Shown here in pieces: positions 36,751-46,840 of a stretch of 64,000 nt of DNA. Numbering within the stretch: position 1 is the first letter of the stretch; each line of letters begins with the position of its first letter. The notes under the pieces are model-generated. The model saw only the letters and a list, made by a program, of their open reading frames with translations, ran no database searches and was not told the origin of the DNA. A program made the position numbers and the translations under genes. This DNA comes from Candidatus Desulfobacillus denitrificans (lineage in GTDB: Bacteria; Pseudomonadota; Gammaproteobacteria; Burkholderiales; Rhodocyclaceae): positions 1,345,390-1,409,389 of the forward strand of contig AP021857.1 in assembly GCA_017347485.1 (NCBI GenBank). Direction: 5' to 3'.

Positions 36751-37890
36751 ATGAGATACGGAATCCTCCTGCTGGCGCTGCTGGCCTGCCTGACGAGGCC
36801 GGCGTGGGCTGCCGCGCCCAATCCACCCACGCCCCTCGAATACGGCGTCGCCGTCGAGGCCGGCAACACCTTCGCCGTCAAGAAGTGGCTGGACCAGGGT
36901 CTGGCGCCGGACTACCTGGCCGACCGCATTGGCAGCGGCCTGATGATCGCGGCGTGGACCGGCAACCTGGAGCTGATGCGGCTCTTCCTCGAGCGCGGCG
37001 CCAGCGTGCACCTCGCCAACCGCTTCGACGAGCAGGCCCTGCAGCTGGCGGCCTGGCGCGGCCATGCCGACGCCGTGCGCCTGCTGCTCGAGCACGGCGC
37101 CGCGGTCAATCGCGAGGGCAAGCAATGGGGGGCGCTGCACTACGCCGCCTTCGCCGGCCGCGCGGAGATCGCCCGCCTGCTGATGGAGAAGGGCGCCGAC
37201 GTGAATGCCCGCACGCCGAACGATTCGACGGCGCTGATGCTGGCGGCGCGCGAAGGGCAGCCGGAGCTGGCCCGCGCACTGCTCGATGCCGGCGCCGATA
37301 CAACGCCAACCAACGAGTGGGGCGACAGCGCGCTCGCCTTCGCCATGCGCCACAAGAACTACGGCATCGCCAGGATGGTGTCGAGCGCCGAGGAGTTCGC
37401 CCGCGCGGCGAAGCAGGCCGAGGCCTACGGCGCGGCGCAGAAATCCGTCCCCGCGCCGCCGCAGATCGGCGAGATCGTCGAGAAGATTCGCGCTGCGCAG
37501 GCGGCAGGCAAGCCGACCGCCGATCTGCACAAGGCGCTGCAGGCCGCCCTCGCCCTGCATCGCCACGACAGCGAGGTGCAGACCCTGAAGACACGGAAGG
37601 GCAAGGGCGGCAAGCCCGAACTGCTGGTGATCACCGCCAAGCGCAACGAAGCCGGCCGCGAGCGCGCCGAACTGCTCTACGAGGCGATCAAGGCCGGCGC
37701 CGCCGTCACCACGCCGGCCGAAGTGGCCGGCCGCGCCGATGCCTCCGCCGAGATTTCCGGCATCCTCGAAAAACTGCGGAAAGAGCAGGGAAAGCAGGGC
37801 CGCAAGCGCTCCGCCGCCGAGTTGCGCAAGGAATTGCACGAGGCGGTCGACAGGTTCAAGCAGGAAGCCGCGGCCGAGGCGGCCAGGTGA
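36751..37890 (+). CDS. Exported ankyrin-repeat protein
   Basis: A 379-residue protein with a signal peptide (RYGILLLALLACLTRPAWA). About five ankyrin repeats follow at 25-200, with TALMLAAREGQPELARALLDAGAD and similar units. The C-terminal 150 residues are Lys/Glu/Ala-rich and probably helical. I chose the ATG at 36751; an in-frame ATG at 36724 would precede the signal peptide. Its partner is unknown. Divergent from the TonB-like gene with a 55-base gap that includes TATAAA at 36738-36743. Confidence 0.8.
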   Translation: MRYGILLLALLACLTRPAWAAAPNPPTPLEYGVAVEAGNTFAVKKWLDQGLAPDYLADRIGSGLMIAAWTGNLELMRLFLERGASVHLANRFDEQALQLAAWRGHADAVRLLLEHGAAVNREGKQWGALHYAAFAGRAEIARLLMEKGADVNARTPNDSTALMLAAREGQPELARALLDAGADTTPTNEWGDSALAFAMRHKNYGIARMVSSAEEFARAAKQAEAYGAAQKSVPAPPQIGEIVEKIRAAQAAGKPTADLHKALQAALALHRHDSEVQTLKTRKGKGGKPELLVITAKRNEAGRERAELLYEAIKAGAAVTTPAEVAGRADASAEISGILEKLRKEQGKQGRKRSAAELRKELHEAVDRFKQEAAAEAAR

Positions 37891-37896
37891 GCGGCA

Positions 37897-38571
37897 TCAG
37901 GTCAGCAGCACCGCCACGATGCCGGTGATGAAGATGCCGTCGAAGCTGCCGGCGCCGCCGATCGAGGCGACCGGCTCGCCGAGCTTGCCGATGTCCTTCA
38001 GCCGCAGGATGTCGGCGCCGATCAGCACGCCGAGCGTGCCGCCGATGTAGGCCAGCACCGGCGCCTGCTCCGGATCGAGCGCCACCGCCGCGATCGCCGC
38101 CGCCAGGGGCGCCACCAGCACCGGCATGGCGATGCCGACCCTCGGCACGGAAAAGCTGACCCCGTAGGACACCAGCGTCACCGCCGCCACCGCCGCCAGC
38201 ACCTGCACCAGGTCCGGCTGGCCATGGCGGATCAGATAGAAGCAGAACGTCGTCGGCACGATGCAGCCGCCGACGTTCACCGCGATGAGGGTCTTGCCCG
38301 GGATCACCCGGAAGCGCTGCAGCAGTTTTTCCGGCAGTTCGCGCAGGCGCTTTTCCTGCGCCTCCCGGTCGGTGGGCACGGTGAACAGCGGCAGATTGAG
38401 CATGCTGCCGAACAGCGTCAGCATCAGCAGCAGCGCCGCCGACTCCGGCGCCAGGCCGAGCTTGTGGAATGCCACGCGCAGGATGCCCAGCTGGACGAAG
38501 GCGACCAGGAAGGCGGCGGCGACGGCAAGCAGCAGCAGGCGGGCGGGCGGCACGTTGGGCGCTTTCGGCAA
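37897..38571 (-). CDS. DUF1614-type membrane protein
   Basis: A 224-residue inner-membrane protein with about six hydrophobic segments. GKTLIAVNVGGCIVPTTFCFYL near 92-113 and the C-terminal GGAGSFDGIFITGIVAVLL are typical of the DUF1614 family, whose function is unknown. It converges with the ankyrin gene (6-base gap) and is divergent from the ClpX-like gene. Confidence 0.78.
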   Translation of the reverse strand: MPKAPNVPPARLLLLAVAAAFLVAFVQLGILRVAFHKLGLAPESAALLLMLTLFGSMLNLPLFTVPTDREAQEKRLRELPEKLLQRFRVIPGKTLIAVNVGGCIVPTTFCFYLIRHGQPDLVQVLAAVAAVTLVSYGVSFSVPRVGIAMPVLVAPLAAAIAAVALDPEQAPVLAYIGGTLGVLIGADILRLKDIGKLGEPVASIGGAGSFDGIFITGIVAVLLT

Positions 38572-38675
38572 TCGGGGAAAGGGCAGGACGGTGGGGGCTA
38601 TGCCCGATTGTATGCCAAAGTCCGATCGCGGCCGGGCATAATCCCGCCATGCTGCATTCCCGGGAGGCCGCCTGC

Positions 38676-39683
38676 ATGACGCCGAGCGCCATCGTCAAAT
38701 ACCTCGACCAGTACGTGATCGGCCAGGACGAGGCCAAGAAGATTCTCTCCGTCGCCGTCTATTCGCACTACCGCAAGGTCGGCCAGGCGAAGCGCGATGC
38801 CGTCGAGCTCGCCAAGAGCAACGTCCTGCTGGTCGGCCCGACCGGAACCGGCAAGACCCTGACGTGCGAGACGCTGGCGCGGGCGCTGCAGGTGCCCTTC
38901 GTCACGGCCGACGCGACGTCCCTGGCGCAGACCGAGTTCGTGAACGAGGAGATCGACGCCCTCTTGCAGCGCCTGCTGGAGAAGGCCGGCGGCGAGGCGG
39001 AGCGGGCGCAGCGCGGCATCGTCTTCATCGACGAGGTGGACAAGCTCAAGGCAATCAGCGGCCAGGCGCGCGGCGCCTCCGGCGAGAGCGTGCAGCACGC
39101 CCTGCTGAAGATCATGGAAGGCGCGCCGGTGCGGCTCAAGCACGGCCAGTACATCGACACCACCAACATCCTGTTCATCTGCGGCGGCGCCTTCGTCGGC
39201 CTGGGCAACATCCTCGCCAGGACGCATGCCTTCGGCTTCATCTCCGCCACCGGCGGCGAGGACCCGCGCATCCTCGAGCGGCTCAACGCGCGCGTCAAGC
39301 CGACCGACCTCTTCGAGTTCGGCCTGATTCCCGAATTCGCCGGCCGCCTGCCGATCATCGCCAGCTTTCGCGACCTCGACAAGGAGATGCTGGTGCGCAT
39401 CATGACCGTGCCGCGCAACGCCATCTACCGGCAGTTCCGCGAGATCCTGCAGGGGGAGGGCGTCGAACTGGCGATCGGCGAGGAGGTGTTCGAGCAGATC
39501 GCCGAGTTGGCCATCGAGTACAAGGTCGGCGCGCGCAGCCTGCGCGGCATCTTCGAGGAAATGCTCACGCCGGTGCTCTACGTGGTGCCGGACGACAAGC
39601 GCATCGCCCGGGTGGAGATCGCCTCGCTGTTCGAGCCGCCGCGCTATCGCGACGCGCAGGGCGCCCCGCTGCAGGCCGGCTGA
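38676..39683 (+). CDS. ClpX-like AAA+ unfoldase without zinc domain
   Basis: A 335-residue AAA+ protein that aligns with the ClpX ATPase core but begins at TPSAIVKYLDQYVIGQDEAKK, so the N-terminal C4 zinc domain is absent. Walker A GPTGTGKT is at 54-61, Walker B IVFIDEVDK near 115-123, sensor-2 GARSLRGIFEEML near the end. Loops differ from standard ClpX. The pore-1 loop GYVG reads EFVN (87-90). The RKH loop is short, with RLKH near 153-156. The ClpP-binding IGF loop reads AFGF (185-188). GGAGG at 38662-38666 supports the ATG at 38676; ATG 38649 is the alternative. It is probably not the cell's housekeeping ClpX. Confidence 0.82.
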   Translation: MTPSAIVKYLDQYVIGQDEAKKILSVAVYSHYRKVGQAKRDAVELAKSNVLLVGPTGTGKTLTCETLARALQVPFVTADATSLAQTEFVNEEIDALLQRLLEKAGGEAERAQRGIVFIDEVDKLKAISGQARGASGESVQHALLKIMEGAPVRLKHGQYIDTTNILFICGGAFVGLGNILARTHAFGFISATGGEDPRILERLNARVKPTDLFEFGLIPEFAGRLPIIASFRDLDKEMLVRIMTVPRNAIYRQFREILQGEGVELAIGEEVFEQIAELAIEYKVGARSLRGIFEEMLTPVLYVVPDDKRIARVEIASLFEPPRYRDAQGAPLQAG

Positions 39684-40820: not shown

Positions 40821-41987
40821 TTACTTCCGGTAGCCGTCGTCGAGGGTGCGCAGGAAGACGACGATGTCGTCGACCTCGCGCTCGCTCAGGCCGAGGCGGC
40901 CGAGTTCTTCCTTGTTCACGTTGGCGGCGACTTCCGGCGCCGGCCAGCAGCGTCGCTTGAGCGCCTCGGCCTCGGGCAGGTCCTGCGGGCAGCGCCTGCG
41001 CACGTCGCGGTCGTTGTAGAAGGCGACCGCTCCGCGCAGGGTACGGAAGTAGCCGTTGTGCATGTAGGGCGCGGTGCGGGCGATGTTGCGCAGCGTCGGC
41101 ACCTTGAACTTGCCGTCCTCTTCGGCCTTCTTCACGGCGGCGCCGAGGCCGCGGTCGACGAAGCGCGCGCCGTCCGGGTTGTGCGCCTTGTCCTGGCCGT
41201 AGAAGGGATTCTCCGGATTGCGCGGCACGCCGAGGTTGTCGTAGGTGAAGTCGGTGAACAGCGGCGGCTCGCCCTTGGGACCGCGCTGGCTGGGATGGCA
41301 GGCGGCGCAGTTGCCCTTCTTCTCGTCCTCGTAGAGCTTCAGCCCGCGCAGCTCCTGCTTCGTCAGCTTCGCCTTGCCCGCCAGCCAGGCGTCGTACTTC
41401 GAGCTGAAGGGCTGGAACTCGGCGCTGCGCTCGTAGGCGGCGAGGGCGGCGGCGATGCGCTCGAAGGCCGGGTCGACATCCTTCAGGGCGTCCTTGCCGT
41501 AGAGCCGGTCGAACAGGCCGGCGTAGGGTGCGCGGCGCACCTTGTCCACCACGCTCCGCTTGTCCGGGTTGGCCATCTCCAGCGGGTCGAGGAAGGGCGC
41601 CTTGGCCTGGTCCTCGAGCGTGGCGGCGCGGCCGTCCCAGAACTGGCCGCCGACGTAGTGCTCCTCCTTCGGGTCGAAGTGGAAAGCGGGTGAAAAGGCC
41701 ATGTACATCGGCGAGGGCGAATTGCGGCTGCCGAAGCGCCGCGGGTCGACGCCCTTCGAGGTCGGCCGGGCCGTGTCCGGATCGACGAAGGCGCGCGCCG
41801 GGTCGTGGCAGCTGGCGCAGGACTGGCCGGCCGGCTCGGACAGGCTGGCGTCGAAGAACAGCAGGCGGCCGAGCGCCGCGGCGGCGTCGTCCGGGCGGGC
41901 AAGGGCCGGCGGCGGGACCGCGCAAAGGACCGCGCAAAGGACCGCAAAAAGGGCTGCGGAAAGCCGGAGGATGCGTGTCGTCATCAT
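40821..41987 (-). CDS. Di-haem cytochrome c peroxidase (MauG/CcpA family)
   Basis: A 388-residue periplasmic protein with a signal peptide ending near residue 30 and two c-type haem sites, CASCH at 57-61 and CAACH at 227-231. LRNIARTAPYMHNGYFRTLRGAVAFYN near 300-326 carries the conserved Met/His region. It reduces hydrogen peroxide with electrons from cytochrome c. The signal peptide has a small tandem repeat (LCAVLCAV) from a 12-base direct repeat at about 41914-41950. It converges with the small ORF (1-base gap). Confidence 0.9.
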   Translation of the reverse strand: MMTTRILRLSAALFAVLCAVLCAVPPPALARPDDAAAALGRLLFFDASLSEPAGQSCASCHDPARAFVDPDTARPTSKGVDPRRFGSRNSPSPMYMAFSPAFHFDPKEEHYVGGQFWDGRAATLEDQAKAPFLDPLEMANPDKRSVVDKVRRAPYAGLFDRLYGKDALKDVDPAFERIAAALAAYERSAEFQPFSSKYDAWLAGKAKLTKQELRGLKLYEDEKKGNCAACHPSQRGPKGEPPLFTDFTYDNLGVPRNPENPFYGQDKAHNPDGARFVDRGLGAAVKKAEEDGKFKVPTLRNIARTAPYMHNGYFRTLRGAVAFYNDRDVRRRCPQDLPEAEALKRRCWPAPEVAANVNKEELGRLGLSEREVDDIVVFLRTLDDGYRK

Positions 41988-42045: not shown

Positions 42046-43728
42046 TTGAAAATCGTCGATCGCCACCCCCTGCAGCGCTTCTGGGCCGTCGCCACCCCCT
42101 ACTGGCGCCAGGAGCGGAAATGGCAGGCCTGGGGCATGCTTGCCCTGCTGGTGCTGCTGCTGGTCGGCCAGACACGCTTCGCCGTGCTGTTCAACGAGCA
42201 GACCGGGGAGTTCACCTCGGCCCTCGCCGCGCGCGAGGAGGAGCGCTTCTGGGCCGCCATCCGCTACTGCCTCGGCCTGCTGCTCTTCGCCGTGCCGGTG
42301 TATGCCTTCTACTACTTCGTGCGCGACAAGCTCGGCCTGCTCTGGCGGCGCTGGATGACCGACCGCTTCCTCGACAGCTACTTCGAGCGGCGCCACTACT
42401 ACGAGCTGAACGCCAATGCCGCCATCGACAACCCCGACCAGCGCATCTCGGAAGACATCAACACCTTCACCCAGCGCACGCTGTATTTCCTGCTGATCCT
42501 GATCGGCGCGCTCATGCAGCTCTTCGCCTTCAGCCTCGTGCTGTGGGAGATCTCGCGGGCGCTGGTGTACTTCCTCGTCGTCTACGCCATCTTCGGCACC
42601 GCCGTCACGCTGGCGGTGTTCGGCAAGCCGCTGCTCGGCCTGAACTTCATGCAGCTGAAGCGCGAGGCCGACTTCCGCTTCGGCATGGTGCGCATCCGCG
42701 AGCATGCCGAGTCGATCGCCTTCTATCGCGGCGAGGCGCAGGAATCGCAGCAGGTGCGCCGCCGCTTCGCCGCCGCCTTCGACAACTACAACCGGCTGAT
42801 CCGCAGCCAGCTCTTCCTCAACCTGTTCCAGTACGCCTACGGCCTGCTCACCATCGTCCTGCCCAGCGCCCTCATCGCCGGCGACGTGCTCTCCGGGGAG
42901 CTGGAGGTGGGCGCCGCCGTGCAGGCCGCCGGCGCCTTCGCCGCCGTGCTCTCCGCCATCTCGGTGGTGATCGAGAACTTCGAGGGCCTCAGCCGCTTCG
43001 CCGCCGGCATCGACCGCCTCAACGCCTTCGCGCGCGTGCTGGCGGCCGAGCCGGCCTGCCGCGCCGGTAGCCCGAGCCTGATCGAATCGGTGCCGGGCGA
43101 CCATCTGGCGCTGGAGCAAGTCACGCTGCTGACGCCGGGCGGCGAGCGCACCCTGGTGAAGAACCTTTCCCTCGCCGTCGCCCCCGGCGAGGGGCTGCTC
43201 ATCGTCGGCGAGAGCGGCAGCGGCAAGAGCTCGCTGCTGCGCGCCATCGCCGGGCTGTGGTATTGCGGCAGCGGCCGCGTCGTGCGCCCGCCCGCCGAGG
43301 ACCTGCTGTTCCTGCCGCAGAAGCCCTACATGATCCTCGGCACGCTGCGCAGCCAGCTGCTCTATCCGCAGCAGGAGCGGCCGCTGCCCGACGCCGAGCT
43401 GCTGCGCCTGCTGGAGCGCGTGAACCTGCCCGACGTCGCCGAGCGCTTCGGCGGCCTGGATGCCGAGCGCGACTGGGAAAAGGTGCTCTCCATCGGCGAG
43501 CAGCAGCGCCTCGCCTTCGCCCGCGTGCTGCTGACGCGGCCGCGCTACGCCATCCTCGACGAGGCCACCAGCGCGCTCGACGCCGCCAACGAGGAAAGCC
43601 TCTACCGCCAGCTCGCCGCCACCGAGACCACGCTGGTCAGCGTCGCCCACCGGCCGGCCTTGCACAAGTACCACCGCCAGGTGCTGGAACTGGCCGGCGA
43701 CGGCGACTGGCAGCTGCGGCCGCTCTAA
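42046..43728 (+). CDS. YddA/SbmA-type ABC transporter (fused permease-ATPase)
   Basis: A 560-residue half transporter: about six membrane segments in 1-310 of the ABC_membrane_2 (SbmA/BacA, peroxisomal ABCD) type with the NPDQRISEDINTFT motif near 127-140. An ATPase domain follows with Walker A GESGSGKSS near 388, signature LSIGEQQR near 483, and Walker B AILDEATSALD. Relatives move peptides, acyl-CoAs or cobalamin; the substrate here is unknown. The only start giving the full family N-terminus is TTG at 42046 with no good ribosome site; the next ATG (42136) would cut into the first helix. Starts 58 bases from the divergent peroxidase gene. Confidence 0.85.
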   Translation: MKIVDRHPLQRFWAVATPYWRQERKWQAWGMLALLVLLLVGQTRFAVLFNEQTGEFTSALAAREEERFWAAIRYCLGLLLFAVPVYAFYYFVRDKLGLLWRRWMTDRFLDSYFERRHYYELNANAAIDNPDQRISEDINTFTQRTLYFLLILIGALMQLFAFSLVLWEISRALVYFLVVYAIFGTAVTLAVFGKPLLGLNFMQLKREADFRFGMVRIREHAESIAFYRGEAQESQQVRRRFAAAFDNYNRLIRSQLFLNLFQYAYGLLTIVLPSALIAGDVLSGELEVGAAVQAAGAFAAVLSAISVVIENFEGLSRFAAGIDRLNAFARVLAAEPACRAGSPSLIESVPGDHLALEQVTLLTPGGERTLVKNLSLAVAPGEGLLIVGESGSGKSSLLRAIAGLWYCGSGRVVRPPAEDLLFLPQKPYMILGTLRSQLLYPQQERPLPDAELLRLLERVNLPDVAERFGGLDAERDWEKVLSIGEQQRLAFARVLLTRPRYAILDEATSALDAANEESLYRQLAATETTLVSVAHRPALHKYHRQVLELAGDGDWQLRPL

Positions 43729-43795: not shown

Positions 43796-46700
43796 ATGAG
43801 CAACTCGCTCGCCTGCGTCGTCGCCGTGTCCATTCTCGCCTTCAGCCTCGCAGTCCGCGCCGCCGAGGACGACGAGGAATCCCTGCCCGTCGAATCGGCA
43901 GCTTCGGCGGAACTGGAACGGCAGGCGGCCTTGCCGCCGCCGGCCGCCGCCAGCCCGCAGGAGCTGTGCGTGTTCCTGCACAAGCGCGGCCTGGCCCACC
44001 TCCGGCTCGGCCTCAACGACAAGGCCCTGGCGGACCTGAAGGAGGCGCTGGCGCTGAAGCTGAAGGGCGCGTCCGATCTCTGGTGCGACCGCTGGCGGCT
44101 GCAGATCGACATCAAGTCGGCGATTTTCGCCAACGCGGACTGGCTGGTGCTGGCCGACTACGCCCAGTCCGTCGCCGGCGAGTACCGGGACGCCAACAAA
44201 TGGCGCTATTCGAGCACGCAGCTCTGGCTGGTCGACGCCTATGTTTTCCTGGGAAGATTGCGGGAGGCCGAGCAGGCCTTCCAGCGCGCCAGCGACCTGT
44301 TGCCGGAACTGCGCCAGAACAAGGCCTGGCCCGTCTACGGCAGCAACCGGCTCGGCCAGCACCATACCTATGCCGCCTGGATGCAGCTGCTGCGCGGCAA
44401 TTTCGTCGAGGCCGAGCGCCACCGTCGGCAGGCGCTGCAGCATGCCCTCGAATATCACGACTACATGCGGACCCATCGTTCCGCCGATAACGTGGATCTG
44501 CGCATGGCCATCGGCAACGTGACGGTGCGCAAGCGCCAGCTCGCCGACGTCCTGGCCGTTCAGGGCAAGACCGGGGAAGCGGAGATCCTGGTGCGCCAGG
44601 CGCTGCAGGAGACGCTCTCGCGCGCCGGGAAGCATACCCAGGGCGTTGCCCGGTTAGTCAACGCCCTGGGCCTGATCAAGCAGCAGCAGGGCCGCGTCGA
44701 AGAGGCCCTGCGCCTGCGCCGGCAGGCCGTATCCCTCCTGGAAGCCTCGGGCGCCCGCGGCTATTCGACCATGCTGGCCGACATGCGCGCCATGGTCGGC
44801 TTCCTGCTCGGCGTGCAGAACCGCTGGGCCGAGTCCCTGGAGGCTTTCCGGCAGCGCGACCAGGGGCTGCGCAGCAACCCGGCCCAGTTCGCCAGGACCG
44901 GTTCCAACAACATCAACTGGGCCATGGCGCTGCTGAAGAACGGGCAGACCGCCGAGTCCGAGCGGATGCTGCGCGCCATGGTCGACTGGAATCTCAAGAA
45001 GCCCTTCGTCGATCCGCTGTATCTGGCCCACCTGCGCGGCTACCACGCGGTGGCGCTGACGGCCGCCGGCCAGGATGCGGCCGCCCTGGCCGAATACCGC
45101 GAAGCCTTCCCGGCCATCCTGCGCCAGGCGGAAACCGACAGCAGCTCGGAAAACGGCGGCTTCGTGCGCCAGTTCCGCCTGCGCCTGATCGCCGAGGGCT
45201 ATCTCGAGCTGCTGACCAGGATGGCGGGCAAAAATGCCGCCGCCGACGGCGAATTGATCGCCGAGGCGTTCAGGGTCGCCGAGGCGGCGCGCGGCTCCAG
45301 CGTGCAGGCCGCCATCGCCAGCAGCGCGGCGCGCGCCAAGCTGCCCGACGCCGCTCTGGCCGAGCTGGCGCGGCGCGAGCAGGACACCGCCAACCAGATC
45401 AGCTCGCTCAACAAGCTGCTGGTGCGCCTCGCCTCGGCGCCCGAAGGGCAGCGCCTCGACAAGGCCATCGCCGACATCCGCGGGGAGGTGCTGCGCCTGG
45501 AGGACAGCCATGCCGGCCTGCGGCGCGAGCTGGCCGAGCGTTATCCCGCCTACGCCGAGCTGGTGGCGCCGAAGGCGCCCTCGCCGGCCGACCTCCAGAA
45601 GGTGCTGCAGCAGGGTGAAGCCGCCGTCGCGCTGTATGTCGCCGAGCGGCAGACCTATGTCTGGACGCTGACTCCGACCCGCGTGTCTTTCCGGGCGGTC
45701 GACCTGTCGAGCGACGAGGCCGGCAAGATGGTCGCCAAGCTGCTCGGCGCCTTCGATCTGAGCGAGGGGCGGCTGCCGGCTTACGATGCCGCGACGGCCC
45801 GCAGCCTCTACCAAACCCTGCTGGCGCCGGACGAAAAACTGTGGGAGGGGGCCGCGCTGCTCAACATCGTCCCGCACGGCGCGCTCGGGCAGCTTCCCTT
45901 CGCCGTGCTGCTGACCGCGGCATCGGACAAGACCGGGCTTGCCGAGCAAGCCTGGCTGGTGAAAAAAATCGCCATCGCCCAGCAGCCCTCCGCCGGCACC
46001 CTGATTTCCTTGCGCGGCAAGGGGCGCGCCGAAACGAAGCGGCGGCCCTTCGTCGGCTTCGGCGATCCGCTGTTCGCCGCCCAGGCCGCCGGCAAGCCCT
46101 CCGCCACCCGCTCGGTTCGCAATCTCGCCGTGGCGCCGGCGCGCGATGCGCCACCGGAAGACCCGACGGCGGTGCAGGCGCTGGGCGCCGCTGCCTCGCC
46201 GGAAGACGGCAAGGCCCTGCTCCTGCGCGGATTCGCCCGCCTGCCGCAGTTGCCCGACACTGCCGAGGAGCTCAACGAGATCGGAAAAATCCTCGGCGCC
46301 GATCCGAAAACCGATGTGCACCTCGGCAGCCAGGCCACCGAAGCCCGGGTCAAGGGAAACGACCTCTCAGGTTATGGCGTGGTGGCCTTTGCTACCCATG
46401 GCCTGGTGCCGGGCGAGCTGCAGGGCCTGGACCAGCCCAGCCTGGCCATGGCCAATCCGGCGCTGAGCGGCGACAAGGATAACGACGGCTTCCTCACCCT
46501 GAGCGAAGTGCTCGGCCTCAAGCTCGACGCCGACTGGGTGGTGCTGTCGGCCTGCAACACCGCCAGCGGCGACGACAGAAACGAAGAAGCCATCTCCGGG
46601 CTCGGGCGGGCCTTCTTCTTCGCCGGCACGCGGCGCCTGCTGCTGACCTACTGGCCGGTGGAAACGGTCTCGGCGCGCCTGCTGACCACCGAGCTGTTCA

Positions 46701-46840
46701 AGCGGCAGAAGGAACAGCCCGGCGAATCCAAGGCCGAGGCCCTGCGGCATTCGATGCTGCGCCTGATGGCCAGCTCGAAGGAATATGCCCACCCCGCCTT
46801 CTGGGCACCCTACGGGCTGGTCGGCGACGCGGCGAAATAG
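43796..46840 (+). CDS. Secreted TPR-CHAT protein (caspase-like)
   Basis: A 1014-residue protein: signal peptide (ACVVAVSILAFSLAVRA), TPR-like helices in about 55-480, a helical linker, and a CHAT peptidase domain in about 680-1010. The caspase-type dyad is visible: His868 (FATHG) and Cys920 (LSACNTASG). The end motif HPAFWAPYGLVG is typical. CHAT proteins are clan CD proteases, several of them activated through their TPR part. It follows the ABC gene by 67 bases, a gap holding the hairpin CCGGCC-AGAATA-GGCCGG at 43753-43770. Its target is unknown. Confidence 0.87.
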   Translation: MSNSLACVVAVSILAFSLAVRAAEDDEESLPVESAASAELERQAALPPPAAASPQELCVFLHKRGLAHLRLGLNDKALADLKEALALKLKGASDLWCDRWRLQIDIKSAIFANADWLVLADYAQSVAGEYRDANKWRYSSTQLWLVDAYVFLGRLREAEQAFQRASDLLPELRQNKAWPVYGSNRLGQHHTYAAWMQLLRGNFVEAERHRRQALQHALEYHDYMRTHRSADNVDLRMAIGNVTVRKRQLADVLAVQGKTGEAEILVRQALQETLSRAGKHTQGVARLVNALGLIKQQQGRVEEALRLRRQAVSLLEASGARGYSTMLADMRAMVGFLLGVQNRWAESLEAFRQRDQGLRSNPAQFARTGSNNINWAMALLKNGQTAESERMLRAMVDWNLKKPFVDPLYLAHLRGYHAVALTAAGQDAAALAEYREAFPAILRQAETDSSSENGGFVRQFRLRLIAEGYLELLTRMAGKNAAADGELIAEAFRVAEAARGSSVQAAIASSAARAKLPDAALAELARREQDTANQISSLNKLLVRLASAPEGQRLDKAIADIRGEVLRLEDSHAGLRRELAERYPAYAELVAPKAPSPADLQKVLQQGEAAVALYVAERQTYVWTLTPTRVSFRAVDLSSDEAGKMVAKLLGAFDLSEGRLPAYDAATARSLYQTLLAPDEKLWEGAALLNIVPHGALGQLPFAVLLTAASDKTGLAEQAWLVKKIAIAQQPSAGTLISLRGKGRAETKRRPFVGFGDPLFAAQAAGKPSATRSVRNLAVAPARDAPPEDPTAVQALGAAASPEDGKALLLRGFARLPQLPDTAEELNEIGKILGADPKTDVHLGSQATEARVKGNDLSGYGVVAFATHGLVPGELQGLDQPSLAMANPALSGDKDNDGFLTLSEVLGLKLDADWVVLSACNTASGDDRNEEAISGLGRAFFFAGTRRLLLTYWPVETVSARLLTTELFKRQKEQPGESKAEALRHSMLRLMASSKEYAHPAFWAPYGLVGDAAK

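Follow-up and report, generated by a model that had tools for sequence, protein, structure and literature searches.

X2, a ClpX paralogue without the zinc domain and with rewritten loops in Candidatus Desulfobacillus denitrificans and related betaproteobacteria

The X2 gene, its surroundings and the canonical clpX

We analysed a stretch of 64,000 nucleotides (the window) from the genome of Candidatus Desulfobacillus denitrificans. An open reading frame in this window, which contains no stop inside its translation, encodes a ClpX-like AAA+ unfoldase that we call X2. The features of the gene are as follows; the promoter and ribosome-binding elements are candidates proposed from the sequence, and the loops were placed by alignment.

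38638-38643, + strand: candidate -10 element CATAAT of a short leader
38662-38667, + strand: ribosome-binding-like GGGAGG, 8 nt 5' of the ATG at 38676
38676-39683, + strand: X2 gene, ClpX-like AAA+ unfoldase of 335 amino acids without the C4 zinc domain
38835-38858, + strand: Walker A, GPTGTGKT
38934-38951, + strand: pore-1 loop, EFVNEE (canonical GYVGED)
39021-39035, + strand: Walker B, VFIDE
39051-39080, + strand: pore-2 loop, shortened by 3 residues and with other residues in place of the RDV in RDVSGE
39123-39158, + strand: RKH hairpin, shortened and without the RKH motif
39231-39242, + strand: FGFI tip, equivalent of the IGF loop at the ClpP-docking position
39345-39347, + strand: arginine finger, equivalent of R307
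39534-39536, + strand: sensor-2 arginine, equivalent of R370
39624-39641, + strand: C-terminal subfamily motif SLFEPP

Translation from the ATG at 38676 starts directly at the conserved TPSxIV beginning, and an alternative longer reading frame from the ATG at 38469 overlaps the divergent DUF1614 gene. The same GGGCATAATCCC as at the candidate -10 element was observed upstream of X2 in a congener (locus L120). A strict sigma32 heat-shock pattern gave no match in the 68 upstream regions of X2 genes.

In the window, 39 nt separate X2 from a WYL regulator gene 3' of it, the DUF1614 gene is divergent from X2, and an earlier sequence-only reading had looked to a conserved link with these neighbours. 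This link was not borne out. The WYL gene adjoined X2 only in the window, in L011 and L120 from the same genus, and in L012. Gene calling and clustering over 68 loci, in three of which the rough caller gave no X2 call, showed no neighbour that the family as a whole has kept, and synteny was only local, among near relatives. Furthermore, the congener G010 has no X2 and retains a WYL gene 95% identical to that of the window, with no X2 remnant beside it; a WYL partnership was accordingly rejected beyond the closest relatives. X2 was likely lost in G010, because it occupies one and the same place in the window's genome (G000) and in G073, which is more distant.

Several other genes of the surroundings were recorded. 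An ankyrin-repeat protein with an apparent signal peptide (judged by eye) is encoded at 36820-37890, two genes from X2. A MauG-type di-haem cytochrome c peroxidase (40821-41987, - strand) lies between the WYL gene and an SbmA/BacA-related ABC transporter (42046-43728), the latter being found near X2 also in L012 and L120. After the transporter, 43796-46840 encodes a TPR protein of 1014 amino acids with a C-terminal CHAT (caspase-like) domain.

The window's own genome, a single contig of 3.15 Mb, carries a canonical clpX elsewhere, at G000:C1:1753822-1754814 in the gene order tig (trigger factor)-clpP-clpX-lon; a standard clpX beside clpP was what the sequence-only reading had proposed to look for. 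Its product of 421 amino acids contains CSFC...CDEC, GYVG, RKH and IGF, and shares about 48% identity with X2. Since this canonical clpX and its clpP are present, X2 is not the only clpX of the genome and is therefore a paralogue, as had been proposed.

The genome contains one clpP, and X2 is not in an operon with it. One full ClpP was likewise found in 20 of the 22 X2-bearing genomes examined and in all 22 X2-lacking control genomes. The two exceptions were G106, with an extra divergent full ClpP, and G032, with a fragmented gene; the other weak ClpP matches scored far below true ClpP. A dedicated second ClpP for X2 was thus ruled out. The second ClpP of G106 (G106:C30:1568-2077) is full-length and scored 188 bits, compared with about 300.

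Conserved motor and altered loops of X2

The ClpX-related core that had been claimed for the protein was confirmed by model searches. X2 matched the NCBIfam ClpX model NF003745 with an E value of 1e-108 and 363.8 bits, above the cut-off of 359, and its best PDB sequence matches were all ClpX (E about 1e-80). The score against TIGR00382 was 331.9 bits, below the cut-off of 370.75. HslU, a related AAA+ unfoldase, was matched at an E value of about 1e-52, and TIGR00390 gave 176.9 bits, under its cut-off of 362.45; the window's genome has its own hslU. An AlphaFold2 model built from 61 family members had a pLDDT of 87.9 and a pTM of 0.85, and the folds nearest to it were all ClpX structures, mostly with a TM score of about 0.8.

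For comparison we collected 68 X2 sequences, all betaproteobacterial, and a set of 72 canonical ClpX proteins; 67 of the former and the 72 latter were aligned and are described here in E. coli ClpX numbering. The catalytic residues were invariant: K125 and T126 of Walker A, D184 and E185 of Walker B, the arginine finger and the sensor-2 arginine were each present in 67 of 67 X2 sequences. The N-terminal C4 zinc domain was found in none of the 68 X2 proteins and in 72 of the 72 canonical ones, so that the claimed absence of the N-domain proved real. At the other end of the protein, the SLF motif (S in 67 of 67, L in 64, F in 65) is ordered in the model with a pLDDT of about 95; this conserved feature was missing from the sequence-only reading. 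Altogether, 14 alignment positions were fixed to different states in X2 and in canonical ClpX.

The substrate-handling and ClpP-docking loops had been described as changed, and indeed the changes are fixed across the whole subfamily. The pore-1 loop reads TEFVNEE in the window, whereas it was AGYVGED in 72 of 72 canonical sequences, and the GYVG signature of ClpX is absent from X2. The replacement of GYVG by EFVN is thus real in the window. It does not amount to a loss of the gripping aromatic, because the aromatic (Y in 54, F in 13) and the following V (66 of 67) are kept and the change affects the flanking glycines. Among paralogues without C4 (68 of 68), EFVN was not uniformly shared as had been envisaged; the loop is mostly T/S-[K/R/E/Q]-[Y/F]-V-[N/G]-x-E. 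In pore 2, a change that had escaped that reading, most X2 sequences are 3 residues shorter and R200-D201-V202 is no longer fixed.

The shortened RKH loop was also confirmed; most members lack about 10 residues of it. The segment 218-240 has 13 residues in 56 of the 67 X2 sequences (19 in a subgroup) and 23 in all 72 canonical ones; no X2 sequence has the RKH motif, K229 and H230 being deleted in 67 of 67. In E. coli ClpX, a mutant in which RKH was changed to AAA does not support degradation of ssrA substrates (PMC7112951).

The docking segment 255-290 is exactly 31 residues long in every one of the 67 X2 sequences, compared with 34-35 in 66 of the 72 canonical ones. The altered tip had been read as AFGF; the alteration stands, although the window reads F-G-F-I at this position. 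Across the family, [F/Y]G[F/Y] in 66 of 67 sequences, with LGF in the remaining one, takes the place of the [L/I/V]-G-F tripeptide that marks ClpX, and in the canonical set the tip consists of M or an aliphatic residue followed by G and by F (70 of 72) or Y. Furthermore, the hydrophobic contact of the loop is shifted from 274 to 271: position 271 is hydrophobic in 67 of 67 X2 and 2 of 72 canonical sequences, and position 274, whose change had gone unrecorded, in 0 of 67 and 66 of 72, respectively. In the E. coli ClpXP complex, I268, F270 and V274 pack into the ClpP clefts; I268L, F270L and V274A cause severe ClpP-binding defects, and changes in loop length lower the affinity for ClpP (PMC7112951). 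X2 is changed at 268, at 274 and in length, and therefore its docking to ClpP may be lost; by this comparison, the contact of X2 with ClpP could not be quite identical to that in E. coli. The length and pattern of the loop are uniform and show no decay, which argues for selection on the loop to dock something.

Distribution and selection of the subfamily

X2 and its relatives share 55-85% identity, and canonical ClpX proteins are 46-53% identical to X2, the two sets lying clearly apart. X2 was detected in 28 of 121 genomes of the window's family and in 36 of 399 genomes of its order. Named contigs with X2 come from Rhodocyclales, Accumulibacter, Sulfuritalea, Dechloromonas and Gallionella MAGs, which makes Burkholderiales, as defined by GTDB, the most likely order. 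Two overlapping samples of the class, with 369 and 229 genomes, contained no X2 from outside the order; the window's own genome was the only one that matched at subfamily level. Consistently, the X2 family profile scored 602 bits for the window and 372 for the best protein outside the order. Because X2 is patchy and probably lost in G010, it is dispensable on an evolutionary time scale. One genus outside the family, g80, has eleven genomes (L192-L201) in which a low-complexity stretch rich in Ala and Pro precedes X2 in frame.

No X2 member was found in phage and plasmid records, where every match was under 60%, or among the best 80 loci of viral contigs, where matches were at 45% or less. These viral proteins (IMG/VR, L244-L323) are ClpX-like and some have a shortened RKH loop. 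Unlike X2, 78 of the 80 keep C4 and nearly all have GYVG and an aliphatic-G-F/I tip. A phage or plasmid origin of X2 was rejected on these grounds. Viral ClpX proteins with C4 often combine a much shortened RKH loop with an I-G-I tip, as in L246, L258 and L261; here the loops were rewritten by a route of their own.

A tree of 73 sequences placed all X2 rows in one clade, with an SH-aLRT support of 100. The X2 stem was 1.67 changes per column long, and its joining point to canonical ClpX is unsure in this quick tree with a long branch. The dN/dS ratio was 0.02-0.07 in six closely related X2 pairs, all drawn from members other than the window's own; X2 is under purifying selection. We propose to define the subfamily by a single clade, the lack of C4 and RKH, the docking segment of 31 residues and the SLF C-terminus, all of which were observed. 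Taken together, these findings make a separate X2 subfamily, derived from ClpX, almost certain, and X2 is most likely a genuine, functional ClpX paralogue subfamily, neither a pseudogene nor the housekeeping ClpX.

Possible function of X2 and comparison with known systems

In comparison with canonical ClpX, X2 retains the AAA+ core, Walker A and B, arginine finger, sensor 2, the pore-1 aromatic and a docking loop with G-F/Y. It differs in having no C4 and no RKH, altered pores, a shorter and re-patterned docking loop and the SLF C-terminus, at 46-53% identity. From this anatomy we give roughly even weight to the proposal that X2 is an active, adaptor-free and ssrA-blind unfoldase, which acts on a private substrate and docks a ring partner, most likely the single ClpP, through its re-engineered loop. 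The fold and the catalytic residues suggest that X2 would assemble as a ClpX-type hexamer and hydrolyse ATP, and the kept aromatic of pore 1 would thread proteins through the pore. Lacking the zinc domain, it would presumably receive no clients from SspB-type adaptors; judging from the E. coli mutants, the missing RKH motif and the changed pore 2 would prevent recognition of ssrA-type tails. If neither adaptors nor ssrA tails are used, X2 would therefore bind only a few kinds of degron, reading them directly where its charged pore opens, and would supplement ClpX for one or few clients. A special substrate, as suggested earlier, would fit the anatomy; against the proposal stand the lack of a conserved neighbour that points to a client, the patchy occurrence of the gene and the changed docking positions. 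The conserved [F/Y]-G-[F/Y]-[I/L/V] loop would still dock a ring partner; since X2 genomes as a rule have one ClpP, that shared ClpP is the likeliest partner, probably through an altered and perhaps less tight contact.

Alternatively, X2 rings may have left ClpP altogether, a role without ClpP having also been raised by the sequence-only reading. The FGFI loop would then dock another partner or nothing, and the rings may unfold one dedicated client, partly or fully, and thereby switch it on or take it apart. The loop length and positions 268 and 274, on which the binding of ClpP by E. coli ClpX depends (PMC7112951), are all changed, X2 has neither a dedicated ClpP nor an operon with clpP, and mitochondrial ClpX, a functional precedent only, acts on ALAS as a remodelling unfoldase (PMC7077987). 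However, the docking loop is undecayed, its length is more uniform than in canonical ClpX, and G269 and F/Y270 are kept, which points to a docking partner. We hold this alternative only tentatively and consider it somewhat improbable; if true, X2 would be a ClpP-free, ClpX-derived bacterial machine with its own partner code.

That X2 subunits join canonical ClpX in hetero-hexamers, and there adjust how specific it is or how firmly it holds ClpP, appears unlikely. The shared fold, the identity of about 48% to the genome's own ClpX and the fully kept catalytic interface residues are compatible with mixed rings, but the 14 differently fixed positions and the long independent stem stand against them. 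A housekeeping ClpX of a diverged lineage or a decaying copy, to which the score just above one NCBIfam cut-off might point, is very improbable: the second, canonical clpX with its clpP refutes a housekeeping role, and purifying selection, the score under the TIGR00382 cut-off and the dispersed loci also oppose this explanation.

As reported in PMC3916325, the ClpX2 of Azotobacter vinelandii (Martinez-Noel 2011) is a second, specialised ClpX linked to nitrogen fixation, and it shares 76% identity with azo2070 of Azoarcus, a clpX adjoining the clpP azo2071; on this account it is therefore of the canonical type. X2 is neither canonical in type nor linked to nif. Many diazotrophs belong to the same order, but the window's genome has no nifD, and nifD was present in 13 of 28 X2-bearing and 35 of 93 X2-lacking genomes of the family (P 0.51) and in 8 of 36 and 49 of 363 genomes of the order (P 0.21). 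A nitrogen-fixation link was thus rejected, and we regard the assignment of X2 to the Azotobacter type as highly doubtful.

No paper on the X2 subfamily was found in a literature search that covered mostly papers outside subscription. Going by its published description, ClpX3 of Myxococcus xanthus (MXAN_2743) appears to be the closest described protein. It is 43.5% identical to E. coli ClpX, its N-terminal domain and RKH motif are missing, and its gene is isolated from clpP; ClpX3 is dispensable, although growth of the deletion mutant is impaired at 36 °C (PMC11423568). The lack of the N-domain and of RKH is thus common to both proteins, known for ClpX3 from that description only, and ClpX3 belongs to another phylum.

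Users of the annotation 'ClpX' should be aware that, in X2-bearing genomes, it also takes in a second protein. The loops of ClpX are among the best dissected of any AAA+ machine, mostly through mutants of the E. coli protein. On these loops, X2 amounts to an experiment of nature, in which the adaptor domain and RKH were removed and the docking loop was rewritten, with the motor kept under strong selection. X2 would reveal if docking to ClpP is open to re-coding or to being given up, and for which client a private unfoldase is required.
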